Positions 10,203 through 14,181 of a DNA stretch of 64,000 nucleotides are shown here, in pieces (the stretch's first letter is position 1; every line of letters begins with the position of its first letter). Source of the stretch: Streptacidiphilus jiangxiensis (lineage in GTDB: Bacteria > Actinomycetota > Actinomycetes > Streptomycetales > Streptomycetaceae); the NCBI RefSeq assembly GCF_900109465.1, contig NZ_FOAZ01000016.1, positions 133,628 through 197,627 of the forward strand, read 5' to 3'. The position numbers and the translations under genes were made by a program. The notes under the pieces were generated by a model. It searched no databases. It had not been told where the DNA came from and saw nothing but the letters and a program-made list of their open reading frames with translations.

Positions 10203-11168
10203 TCAGCCGTTCTTGGCCAGGTCGGCGATCGAGGTCAGGTGGTACTTGTCCGCCGTGGCCTTGGTGACCACGATCGCGTCCTTGTCCTGTGCGGAGGACT
10301 GGTCCAGCACGGTGAGCGGCGCCGGCACGACCTTCTGCAGCGCCGCGTAGACGTCGGCCGAGGAGACCGCGGTCGCCTTGGGGTCGAAGTACTGCAGCAG
10401 CACGCCGCTGTACTCCGGGATCAGGTCGATCGAGCCGTCCTTCAGGCCCGGAATGTACGTCTCGCGGCTGCCGATGTTCAGGCGCGTGGTGACCGTCGCA
10501 CCCTGGTCGCGCAGCGCCTCGGCGTAGATCTCGGCGAGCAGCACGTTCTCCTGGAAGTTCGCCGACCCGATCTTGACGGACACTCCCTGGGCCGCCGTGC
10601 CGTGCTTGGCGAGGCCCACCTGGGTGAGCCAGCCCTGGGCGACGGCGGCCGGATCCTGCTTGTCGGTGATGACGTGGACGTTCAGGGTCGTGAGGGTGCT
10701 GGTGTCCAGCGTGTCCGAGACCGCCTTCAGGGTGGAGGTGACCCCCGGGGTCGCCTTCGCCTTGTTGATGAGCGGCAGCACGTTCTGTGCGGCGTAGAGG
10801 TTCTTCGGATCCTGCAGCACGACGAAGCCGTCCGCCTGGATCGACGGGTCGGTGGTGAAGATGTCGCCCGCGTCGATCTGACCGTTCTTCAGCGCGTTGA
10901 CGGTCAGTGGACCGCCGGCGTCCAGGGTCTTGTAGGAGCCGAACGTCACGCCGTAGACCCGCTCGAGACCGGGGATGCCGTCGGGTCGGGTCTTGAACTC
11001 CGGCGAGCCGCCGAGCACCAGCTTCGCGGCGATGGTCGAGCCGCCGCCCGAGGGGGAGGCGCCGCCGCTCGTGGAGAGTCCGTTGGCGCCACTGCTGCCA
11101 CTGCTGCCGCAGGCGGCCAGCGCCACCGCGCAGGCTGCGACGAGCGCGGAGGTGAGGGCCTTCTTCAT
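10203..11168 (-). CDS. OpuC-type osmoprotectant-binding lipoprotein, apparently circularly permuted
   Basis: This 321-residue lipoprotein has a signal peptide with lipobox LAAC (Cys20) and a Gly/Ser linker to about residue 45. The binding domain is in swapped order. Residues 46-185 (LVLGGSPEFKTRPDG, VYGVTF, DIFTTDPSI, VLQDPKNLY, WLTQVG) match what is normally the second half of OpuAC/OsmX domains. Residues 196-321 (VKIGSANFQENVLLAEIYAE, LNIGSRETYIPGLKDG, LIPEYSGVLLQYFD, ending LTSIADLAKNG) match the normal first half. The ends fit a cut at the usual SIADLAK/KLVLGGSPEF junction. It is the last gene of a quaternary-amine ABC operon, and presumably binds glycine betaine or a relative outside the membrane. 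Confidence 0.85.
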   Translation of the reverse strand: MKKALTSALVAACAVALAACGSSGSSGANGLSTSGGASPSGGGSTIAAKLVLGGSPEFKTRPDGIPGLERVYGVTFGSYKTLDAGGPLTVNALKNGQIDAGDIFTTDPSIQADGFVVLQDPKNLYAAQNVLPLINKAKATPGVTSTLKAVSDTLDTSTLTTLNVHVITDKQDPAAVAQGWLTQVGLAKHGTAAQGVSVKIGSANFQENVLLAEIYAEALRDQGATVTTRLNIGSRETYIPGLKDGSIDLIPEYSGVLLQYFDPKATAVSSADVYAALQKVVPAPLTVLDQSSAQDKDAIVVTKATADKYHLTSIADLAKNG

Positions 11169-11244
11169 GCTTTCTCCTGGTGAGTGAGGGATCCGGTGCA
11201 GGATCCGGTGAGTGGCGGGAGCGTCCGAGGGAACAGGGGCGGCC

Positions 11245-12042
11245 TCAGGCCGTGTGGGGGCTGGGCGGGGTCTCGGCGGTGACCGGCGGGCCATCCGCCG
11301 CGCCGCCGCCCTCGCCCCGCAGGTCGCCGCCGCCCGGCCCGTCCGCCGCCTCCGAGGTGCGACCGCGTGGAAAGCGGCCGGAGACGCCACGCGAGACCGT
11401 GTAGCGCTGGGCGAGCGCCAGCACGAGGTCGGCGGCGACCGCGAGCAGCGCGACCAGCACCGCCCCCGCGTTGCGCTCGGCGTAGTTCTGGCTGGCCTGG
11501 CCGTCGTAGACGAACCGGCCGAGTCCGCCGAGGCCCAGATAGGCGGCGACCGTGGCGGTCGCGATGACCTGGAGCGTCGCACTGCGCAGGCCGGAGAAGA
11601 CGAGCGGCAGCGCGTTGGGCAGTTCGACCCGGCGCACCACCTGGCTGCCGCGCATGCCCATCGCGGCCGCGGCGTCCCGCACGTCCGGCGCCACGTTCTC
11701 GACGCCGGAGACCGTCCCGGCCAGGATCGGCGGGATCGCCAGCAGCACCAGCACGATCTCCGTCGGCAGCAGGTAGACGGTGTCGCCCTTCCCGTGGATG
11801 TGTGGCGCGAGCATCACGTACAGCAGGATCAGCAGGCCGACGACGGGCAGCGCGCGCATCGCGTTGGCGACGGTGACCAGCCACCGCCCGCGGCCGGTGT
11901 GCCCGATGAGCAGGCCGACGGGCAGCGCCAGCGCGACGGCGATCACCAGCGCGATGATCGAGTACTGCAGGTGCGCGCGGAGCTGGTCGAGGATGCCGCC
12001 GGGTGCCGTCCAGTTGCCGGGGTCGTTGAGCCACTGGATCAC
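11245..12042 (-). CDS. Osmoprotectant (OpuC/ProW-type) ABC transporter permease
   Basis: This 265-residue permease has about six membrane segments. The MetI-type permease signature is seen around ENVAPDVRDAAAAMGMRGSQ and ELPNALPLVFSGLRSATLQV, which contains the EAA loop that docks on the ATPase. The GTG start overlaps the upstream permease stop by 4 bp. The C-terminal ~35 residues are low-complexity (Gly/Ala/Pro/Glu) and probably cytoplasmic. It pairs with the permease encoded at 12039 to form the transport channel. Confidence 0.88.
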   Translation of the reverse strand: MIQWLNDPGNWTAPGGILDQLRAHLQYSIIALVIAVALALPVGLLIGHTGRGRWLVTVANAMRALPVVGLLILLYVMLAPHIHGKGDTVYLLPTEIVLVLLAIPPILAGTVSGVENVAPDVRDAAAAMGMRGSQVVRRVELPNALPLVFSGLRSATLQVIATATVAAYLGLGGLGRFVYDGQASQNYAERNAGAVLVALLAVAADLVLALAQRYTVSRGVSGRFPRGRTSEAADGPGGGDLRGEGGGAADGPPVTAETPPSPHTA

Positions 12043-12737
12043 GAGCCGCTCACCGCCCGGCGCCAGGGGGTGGCGAGCCAGGTGGCGCCGACCACGAACA
12101 GGTCGAACGCCAGCGCCAGCAGCACGCACAGCACGATGCCGAGGGTGATCGGCGGGTAGTACGGACTGCCGACGGAGAGCTGGAAGCCGGTGGTGAAGAG
12201 CTGCCCGAGGTTGGGGACACCGATGGTCCCGGCGACCGCCACCAGACTCACGTTGGCCACGACCGCGACCCGGACGCCGGCCGCGATCACCGGCACCGCG
12301 AGCGGCAGCTCCACCTTGAGCAGCCGTTGACGTCGGGTCAGCCCCATCGCCGTCGCGGCCTGCGCGACGTCCGCCGACACCGCACCCAGCCCGTCGGCCA
12401 CGACGCGGACCAGCAGGGCGACGGTGTAGACGGTGAGGGCGACCGCCACGTTGATCGGGTCGAGGATCTGGGTGCCGATGATGGACGGGATGGAGACGAA
12501 CAGGGCGATCGAGGGGATGGTGTACAGCAGCCCTGCCGCGGTGACCAGCGGCGGGTAGGCCCACCGGTAGCGGTGCGCCAGCCAGCCCAGCGGCAGCGCG
12601 ACCAGCAGGCCCACGACCACCGGGACCGCGGAGAGCCAGGCGTGGTAGCCCAGCCAGTTCAGTACCTCGTCCTGGTGCTGGCGGAAGTAGTCGAACATGC
12701 CGAACGGGGAGGAGTCGACGGCGAGCAGACGCATCAC
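12039..12737 (-). CDS. Osmoprotectant (OpuC/ProW-type) ABC transporter permease
   Basis: This 232-residue permease has six predicted membrane segments and an EAA-type loop at DVAQAATAMGLTRRQRLLKV followed by ELPLAVPVIAAGVRVA. The start is GTG at 12737, overlapping the ATPase stop (GTGA); the next codon, ATG at 12734, is an equally acceptable start. It is the first of two adjacent permeases in the operon, an OpuCB/OpuCD-like pair that makes a heterodimeric channel. Confidence 0.88.
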   Translation of the reverse strand: MMRLLAVDSSPFGMFDYFRQHQDEVLNWLGYHAWLSAVPVVVGLLVALPLGWLAHRYRWAYPPLVTAAGLLYTIPSIALFVSIPSIIGTQILDPINVAVALTVYTVALLVRVVADGLGAVSADVAQAATAMGLTRRQRLLKVELPLAVPVIAAGVRVAVVANVSLVAVAGTIGVPNLGQLFTTGFQLSVGSPYYPPITLGIVLCVLLALAFDLFVVGATWLATPWRRAVSGS

Positions 12738-13879
12738 GACTCCCCACCCTGGGTCGAACGCTCGCCGGCCGCGCGTTGCTGTTCGATCCGGGCCAGGACC
12801 TCGGACGCGGTCACCGTGCCGAGCAGGCGGCCCGAGTCGTCGACGATCACGCCCCGGCCGCTGGGGGAGGAGAGCGCGGCGTCGAGTGCCTCGCGCAGTG
12901 TGGCGTTCTCCGAGGCGAGCGTGCCGCCCAGGTTGAGCTGCGCCTCCGTGACCGGCTCGGCGGGGGTGGACGGCGGCGGGTCCGCGTCGGCCTCGGCGCG
13001 CAGCCAGCCCTGGGGGCGCTGCGCCGCGTCCGTCACCAGCACCCAGCCGCCCTCGGCGGCGTCGCGTGCCTCGCCCGACGCGGCGCCGAGGGCGATCACC
13101 TGCTCCTGACGGACCGGCAGCCGGCCGGCCCCGGCGAAGCCGAGCGCCCGGTAGCCGCGGTCGCGTCCGACGAAGCCGGCGACGAAGGTGTCGGCGGGCT
13201 CCGAGAGCAGCTCGGCGGGCGGCGCCAGCTGCGCCAGCCTGCCCCCCACCTGCAGCACCGCGACCTGGTCGCCGAGCTTGATGGCCTCGTCGATGTCGTG
13301 GGTGACGAAGACGATCGTCTTGCCGAGCTCGCCCTGCAGGTTCAGGAACTCGTTCTGCAGCTGCGCCCGCACCACCGGGTCGACGGCGCTGAACGGCTCG
13401 TCCATCAGCATCACCGGCGGGTCCGCCGCGAGCGCGCGGGCGACACCGACGCGCTGCTGCTGTCCGCCGGAGAGCTGGGCCGGGTAGCGCTTGGCGAAGT
13501 GCGGCGGCAGCCCGACCCGCTCCATCAGTTCCAACGCCCGGCGCCGCGCCCGTTTCCTGTCGTGGCCGAGCAGCTCGGGCACGGTGGTGATGTTGTCCAG
13601 GACGGTCCGGTGCGGGAAGAGCCCGGCATGCTGGATGACATAGCCGATGCCGCGGCGCAGCTGGTGGGTGGGGACGGTGGCGGTGTCGCGGTCGTCCAGC
13701 CAGATGCGGCCGTCGGTCGGCTCGATCATCCGGTTGATCATGCGCAGGCTGGTGGTCTTGCCGCAGCCCGACGGCCCGACCAGGACGGTGATCGCGCCGG
13801 ACGGGGCGACCAGGTCGAGTCGGTCGACGGCGACGGTGCCGTCGGGGTACTTCTTACTGACGGACTCGAACCGGATCAC
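12734..13879 (-). CDS. Osmoprotectant ABC transporter ATPase with C-terminal CBS region
   Basis: This 381-residue ATPase has Walker A GPSGCGKTT, the signature LSGGQQQRVGVARAL, Walker B VMLMDEPF and an H-loop in FVTHDIDEAIKLGD. The C-terminal ~120 residues carry CBS-like segments (WVLVTDAAQRPQGWL; TLREALDAALSSPSGRGVIV; GRLLGTVTASEVL), which in OpuA/OpuC transporters sense ionic strength or nucleotides. The GTG at 13879 fits the usual family start (VIRFESVSKKYPDGT); an ATG at 13924 would add 15 residues. It leads the four-gene operon with two permeases and the binding protein. Confidence 0.9.
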   Translation of the reverse strand: MIRFESVSKKYPDGTVAVDRLDLVAPSGAITVLVGPSGCGKTTSLRMINRMIEPTDGRIWLDDRDTATVPTHQLRRGIGYVIQHAGLFPHRTVLDNITTVPELLGHDRKRARRRALELMERVGLPPHFAKRYPAQLSGGQQQRVGVARALAADPPVMLMDEPFSAVDPVVRAQLQNEFLNLQGELGKTIVFVTHDIDEAIKLGDQVAVLQVGGRLAQLAPPAELLSEPADTFVAGFVGRDRGYRALGFAGAGRLPVRQEQVIALGAASGEARDAAEGGWVLVTDAAQRPQGWLRAEADADPPPSTPAEPVTEAQLNLGGTLASENATLREALDAALSSPSGRGVIVDDSGRLLGTVTASEVLARIEQQRAAGERSTQGGES

Positions 13880-14181
13880 GAGGCCGCGACCCCCCTTTCG
13901 GCCGGAGACAGGTGCGGACACCATCGAACTGTCCGCGACGGCGCGGGGGCGGGCGACGCGCTCGAAGGCGTAGGCCGAACGGGTGAAGCAAAGGGCCGAA
14001 AATCGAGTGAGCGTGGCGTTCGGTGTGCGGCAGGACGACGCCGCGTGGATCCACCCCACCTGCCAGGTCGCCTTCTCCGTCGCCGCGAACCCCTCCCTCC
14101 CCGGCTCCGTGATGCGCGCCCGCCTGGGGTGAGGCGGCGGCCGGCCGGGGCGCTGTCAGTGGGGACGTGTTCAATGCCGTC
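13880..14181. other. Intergenic region upstream of the ABC operon
   Basis: These 302 bp separate the divergent ABC operon and the hypothetical gene at 14182. They presumably hold both promoters. I could not pick out a convincing promoter, riboswitch or palindrome, and the open frames here do not resemble proteins. Confidence 0.4.

Follow-up and report, generated by a model that had tools for sequence, protein, structure and literature searches.

The gene P0002 lies in a stretch of Streptacidiphilus jiangxiensis DNA of 64,000 nucleotides (contig NZ_FOAZ01000016.1, positions 133,628 to 197,627; hereafter, the window) and encodes an OpuAC-family lipoprotein whose binding domain had been described, in an initial annotation made from the sequence, as having its halves in reversed order. 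This raises the questions of (i) whether the halves are truly exchanged; (ii) whether the exchange is confined to this gene; and (iii) how it arose and what it means for the protein. The Pfam profile OpuAC (PF04069) matches P0002 in two stretches (175.6 bits, E-value 1.9e-51), passing the gathering cut-off of 21.2 bits. The first, residues 49–183, corresponds to profile positions 114–257, while the second corresponds to positions 2–124 (in the whole-genome search, where the final few positions lie beyond the stop codon). Rotated in silico, the protein gives a single stretch, residues 6–269, matching positions 2–257 of 257 and scoring 189.1 bits, compared with 175.6 bits for the native order; a canonical paralogue from the same genome, C57, likewise gives a single stretch over positions 2–257 (157.1 bits). 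P0002 is a circular permutant of the OpuAC domain, with its halves exchanged and with near-complete profile coverage once rotated.

Comparison with Archaeoglobus fulgidus ProX (1sw1) gave the same picture. For native P0002, the best stretch comprised residues 44–188, accompanied by a weak second piece of 11.0 bits (83.1 bits for the whole sequence), whereas the rotated protein yielded a single stretch over chain positions 7–275 (91.8 bits). The topology predicted by an AlphaFold model is the permuted one. No canonical ProX/OpuCC chain was found among the 50 best VIA-align rows for this model, a result that is expected of a sequential alignment and is still compatible with kinship. Profiles, homologs and predicted structure thus support the reversed half-order, and the boundaries first proposed, 46–185 and 196–321, agree with the Pfam and ProX stretches. 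Profiles that expect colinear domains split the P0002 family, which should serve as a warning.

That the order stems from a pseudogene, a mis-assembly or an annotation artefact has next to no probability. The gene had been called unbroken, with signal peptide, lipobox and operon intact, and we indeed found the signal peptide, a ribosome-binding-site-like motif and the operon to be intact, the lipobox cysteine, C20, being invariant in both homolog alignments (A1 and A2). Moreover, the same order occurs in 120 of the 120 nearest proteins, query included (the best 120 of 7043 matched), in 5 of 14 Streptacidiphilus genomes, in 6 of 200 genomes of the family (E 1e-60), and among named isolates that belong to several families. 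Because it recurs in all 120 of these proteins and in five genomes of the genus, it cannot be ascribed to chance or local mis-assembly, and on the strength of an intact gene and of independent genomes sharing the order, chance, pseudogene and mis-assembly were rejected. The idea that the order is peculiar to one genome was likewise rejected, as the nearest proteins form a widespread subfamily. Nor is it an order common to all homologs with a standard topology, the outcome against which the initial annotation had staked its claim: close homologs do share the order, but those further removed that occupy the same type of operon are canonical, and the topology of the model is permuted.

To describe the arrangements, we used segment profiles for N, for C1 (the 33 residues that open the C-half) and for C2 (the remainder of the C-half). 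Among 360 listed proteins, 218 have the order C1-C2-N (type A, as in P0002), 120 the order C2-N-C1 (type B) and 17 the canonical order, while two contain only the C-half and three are odd; this tally mirrors the three queries used rather than natural frequency. Type B proteins start about 34 residues later than those of type A, and the source names on six of them are Acidimicrobiales or Iamia; in genomes of that class, type B was found in 2 of 148 (E 1e-30). Type C is represented by one locus, L072, in which the cut lies about 31–33 residues beyond that of type B and the lipobox is kept. Across whole genomes the permuted order is patchy. The P0002-type order was detected in 3 of 197 genomes of the order and 5 of 394 of the class (both at E 1e-60; these counts, like those for genus and family, include the genome of origin), and 396 genomes of the phylum yielded at least 12 cases of type A, at least two of type B and at least one of type C, plus one interrupted by a contig end. 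Named hosts include Streptacidiphilus, Catenulispora, Modestobacter, Pseudofrankia, Streptomyces, Aeromicrobium, Marmoricola and Nocardioides.

With lobes assigned by homology, all three cuts appear to fall within lobe 2. In P0002, the cut separates the helix SIADL from the strand LVLG and the old ends are joined by a linker of roughly 10 residues, so that the usual D1-D2-D1 chain would become D2-D1-D2, retaining the two-lobed fold and the pocket residues of its lineage. The N-terminal lipid anchor, which formerly would have left lobe 1, would now leave lobe 2.

P0002 is encoded together with an ATP-binding cassette (ABC) ATPase and two permeases that lie upstream of it on the same strand, the composition of an Opu/Osm-kind ABC importer. 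In such importers, a lipid-tethered substrate-binding protein (SBP) clamps shut around its ligand and then engages the permease pair, and P0002 would be the lipid-anchored SBP serving this importer. In a scan of named genomes (the best 80 of 578 confirmed loci), the order ATPase–first permease–second permease–SBP was seen at 29 of 31 loci found via a permuted SBP and at 45 of 49 found via a canonical SBP; both exceptions among the former, and three of four among the latter, lie at a contig end. These figures count L107 as a permuted locus; sorted under its canonical SBP, which lies nearer the start of the locus, the tallies become 28/30 and 45/50. The permuted SBP of L107 thus shares a stretch of 10.8 kb with a second SBP open reading frame (ORF), of canonical order.

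Phylogenetic trees were built from re-ordered proteins (those with an N match below 100 or a C2 match below 85 profile positions were left un-reordered), the 465 distinct re-ordered sequences being thinned to 58 and then to 56 rows, with L009_can and L109_can excluded from the 56-row tree as long branches. In this tree, a clade of nine rows that includes the window protein has canonical proteins of actinomycetes as its neighbors; the remaining type A proteins, type B and type C lie beyond a branch with 100/99 support, mixed with canonical rows, the closest of which are P0307 and P0337. Forcing all type A proteins into one clade costs 248.8 log units (approximately unbiased (AU) test, p 1.3e-5), and forcing all permuted rows together costs 246.7 log units (p 3.7e-7); in both cases, the group was set by order alone. 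Six type A rows of the second group do not form one clade (26.7 units, p 0.0028, a value that is too favorable, as the subset was picked after seeing the tree), and there may have been a further switch or reversal inside this group. A tree of the ATPase and both permeases from 46 loci shows the same split as the SBP tree. Trees of the separate halves are weaker, yet keep the two type A groups apart, with the exception of L044. Consistent with this separation, the 147 permuted proteins that are at least 50% identical to the window protein (the window group) share no more than 51% identity with the other 104, while among the canonical relatives found, the nearest, which belongs to an operon of the same type, is 69.5% identical to the re-ordered window protein.

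We consider it likely that P0002 is a working receptor of an ABC importer and a true circular permutant, descended, plausibly through tandem duplication and trimming, from a canonical ortholog that served the same type of operon in an ancestral actinomycete, and that it arose separately both from the second permuted clade, found in other actinobacterial lineages, and from Bacillus subtilis OpuAC. By inference, the last of these, kin of the canonical Lactococcus lactis OpuA, is a third instance of the same cut. Several observations count against this interpretation. The window clade has a support of only 88/75 in the best tree and does not hold together cleanly when the N-half or the C-half is analyzed alone, L044 switching side in the N-half tree. 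Either of two proteins that resemble intermediates (see below), P0267, an apparent permuted/canonical mosaic, or P0279, may be an assembly chimera. Finally, the sequence T-[IV]-A-S precedes LxLGG (approximately residues 45–48 of P0002) in 83 of the 147 window-group proteins and 70 of the other 104 type A proteins, and in none of 98 canonical proteins; with the serine optional, the numbers rise to 137/147 and 75/104.

This shared start may point to a single permutation that spread horizontally and had both of its halves overwritten from local canonical genes, leaving the junctions. The cuts are also near-identical, and conversion partners exist, both orders standing in tandem at L109. However, the one-clade trees are about 247–249 log units worse; the transporter partners (ATPase and permeases) split likewise, although conversion of the SBP would not be expected to extend to them; the pocket residues follow lineage, as detailed below; and B. 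subtilis OpuAC, a member of another subfamily, has the same cut although its close L. lactis relative is canonical. The SBP and transporter-partner trees both separate the two type A clades; a single origin for them is rejected (AU p 1.3e-5 in the SBP tree), and we regard the conversion scenario as very unlikely.

As to the route, the likeliest would be that the SBP gene was duplicated in tandem, that the copies fused in frame and that the outer pieces were lost. Permutation by duplication, as described for saposin/swaposin and DNA methyltransferases, proteins unrelated to P0002, predicts tandem and partly duplicated intermediates (PMC3320104). Tandem SBP genes were found at L108:4929-6904 (Allobranchiibius; two permuted), at L208:4967-6866 (genome G249; two canonical) and at L109:4038-6905 (Marmoricola sp. 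URHB0036), where a permuted SBP is directly followed on the same strand by a canonical one, the latter a long branch. Two 1.5-domain proteins, P0267 (C-N-C, 465 residues) and P0279 (N-C-N, 442 residues), have the form expected of intermediates. P0267 is encoded on a 1531-bp contig; its first C-half matches the permuted L036 at 87% identity, and its last matches the canonical P0307 at 69%. The pieces of P0279, a protein with no contig listed, find their best matches, at about 79–91% identity, in permuted proteins. We did not accept these two proteins as proof of an intermediate, as P0267 could have come from a crossover or from chimeric assembly. Separately, in a genome of the same genus (G003), L081:5020-7641 on the minus strand holds an 873-residue ORF with a permease-like part followed by two canonical OpuA-type domains (N-C-N-C), a fused tandem that could be the state from which a duplication-type permutation starts.

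Alternatively, the gene may have been split into two half genes that were later fused in the opposite order. The lobes of type II SBPs are each compact, and 2 of the 360 listed proteins (P0283 and P0319) consist of the C-half only; these have no listed contig and may be fragments, though, no ORF of at least 120 residues carrying one half alone was detected in the loci examined, and the cuts fall within lobe 2 rather than between the lobes. We consider such fission and fusion unlikely, and the duplication route remains our preferred one.

The initial annotation had called P0002 osmoprotectant-binding, a term that holds only as a family label. The cage of A. fulgidus ProX, which we take to consist of Y63, Y111, Y190 and Y214 (a numbering that fits the letters of the aligned chain), corresponds in P0002 to Y253, which is kept, D297, F104 and Q128, respectively; further ProX positions, K13, R149 and D109, correspond to A203, R61 and D295. 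Only one of the four cage tyrosines being kept, a betaine ligand is not supported. The four-tyrosine rule given for cluster F-III, the A. fulgidus ProX type (PMC9732360), thus does not extend to P0002, in which three are absent. Against the NCBIfam OsmF equivalog (NF049931), P0002 scored 89.6 bits in a split match, where 400 bits are required. Pocket residues track lineage. Position 297 is aspartate in 147/147 proteins of the window group and in 59/59 canonical proteins that are at least 50% identical, but asparagine in 104/104 proteins of the second type A group and 115/115 of type B; position 128 is glutamine in 147/147 and 54/59 of the former, but aspartate or glutamate in 102/104 and 115/115 of the latter. 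In the remaining 39 canonical proteins, both positions are mixed. P0002 probably has a ligand in common with its canonical actinomycete relatives.

Whether the rearrangement matters to the cell is a separate issue from its reality. A neutral permutation, tolerated by a pseudo-symmetric two-lobed fold for which the anchor position is irrelevant, has in our estimate about an even chance. Both forms, canonical and permuted, serve operons of one type and have identical pocket residues, the distribution of the order is patchy, and the second group mixes both forms; on the other hand, none of the 120 listed nearest proteins departs from the order, and all three cuts seem to lie in the same lobe, though just three are known. 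Tentatively, the OsmX-type SBPs of Actinomycetota might be a permutation hot spot, in which one cut originated two or more times and two further cuts appeared in other lineages, canonical and permuted forms interchanged via tandem or 1.5-domain genes, each cut shifted the lipid anchor from lobe 1 to lobe 2, and selection on the tethered lobe drove the repeats.

The boundary, which the initial annotation could not place in a known case, does have a precedent: the chain of B. subtilis OpuAC (PDB 2B4L; further entries 2B4M, 3CHG and 5NXX) starts and ends in 2B4L at equivalent residues. That protein, however, shares only 15% identity with P0002 in a structural alignment and groups with OpuA proteins, including the canonical substrate-binding domain of L. 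lactis OpuA, not with the OsmX/ProX type. In phmmer searches of the PDB, P0002 matched 27 sequences up to E 0.01, all of the ProX/OsmF/OpuCC/EgtU type or sensors derived from them and 2b4l not among them, while the eight sequences matched by B. subtilis OpuAC up to E 0.001 include none in common with these. By this comparison, P0002 appears to fall outside the B. subtilis OpuAC subfamily, with no significant sequence kinship. Its closest solved sequences are the SBPs A. fulgidus ProX, OpuCC and EgtUC (cluster F-III), which belong to the same Pfam family but, unlike P0002, have the canonical order and, in ProX, the full cage.

Circular permutation among betaine-binding proteins is already known, CPSARST having related 2b4l, 1r9l and 1sw1 (PMC2395249), as is the same cut in a solved structure. 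The CPSARST set comprises structure pairs only, and the available part of that paper makes no mention of an actinobacterial family, repeat origins or other cuts; that of PMC2861598 contains no permut-, swap- or dislocation wording. According to PMC4990184, Treponema TpMglB-2 is also a natural permuted, membrane-tethered SBP, for which the authors suggest a link to anchoring, but it has a type I fold, a glucose ligand and another cut. Our literature search, which covered few subscription journals, turned up no report of permuted OpuAC proteins from actinobacteria. Within it, the permuted OsmX-type family of actinobacteria, its repeated origin, the two further cuts and the existence of close relatives with canonical order in operons of the same type look new. 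Inferences of natural circular permutation often rest on comparisons of distantly related proteins, making the event itself hard to study, whereas a canonical/permuted pair about 70% identical, with the same kind of operon and the same pocket residues, makes the cost, benefit and route of permutation directly testable. The family also offers natural scaffolds for biosensor design, in which rearranged binding proteins are usually engineered.

Features of the P0002 locus, in window coordinates
Feature	Position	Strand	Basis
Permuted OpuAC-family substrate-binding lipoprotein gene (P0002), 321 residues; ATG at 11168, TGA at 10203-10205	10203..11168	-	Pfam OpuAC match, homologs
AGGAG, ribosome-binding-site-like, 5 nt from the ATG	11174..11178	-	direct sequence reading
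Signal peptide, residues 1-20, ending in lipobox LAAC	11109..11168	-	translation inspected by eye
Gly/Ser-rich tether, residues 21-44, AlphaFold confidence (pLDDT) mostly low	11037..11108	-	translation and AlphaFold model
OpuAC C-half in first place, residues 45-187 (Pfam 114-257 on 49-183)	10608..11036	-	
New linker KHGTAAQGV, residues 188-196, old C-terminus to old N-terminus	10581..10607	-	
OpuAC N-half in last place, residues 197-321	10206..10580	-	Pfam match
Second permease, 265 residues, start inferred at VIQWLND	11245..12042	-	BPD_transp_1, E 1.4e-22
First permease, 232 residues	12039..12737	-	BPD_transp_1, E 6.4e-15
ABC ATPase with CBS-like C-terminal part	12734..14059	-	CBS 21.1 bits, under the Pfam cut-off of 24

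The true start of the ATPase is probably downstream of 14059. The canonical paralogue C57 (L006:1727-2770) had no ATPase or permease match within 6 kb when the window's own proteins were used as queries, and may be an orphan SBP.
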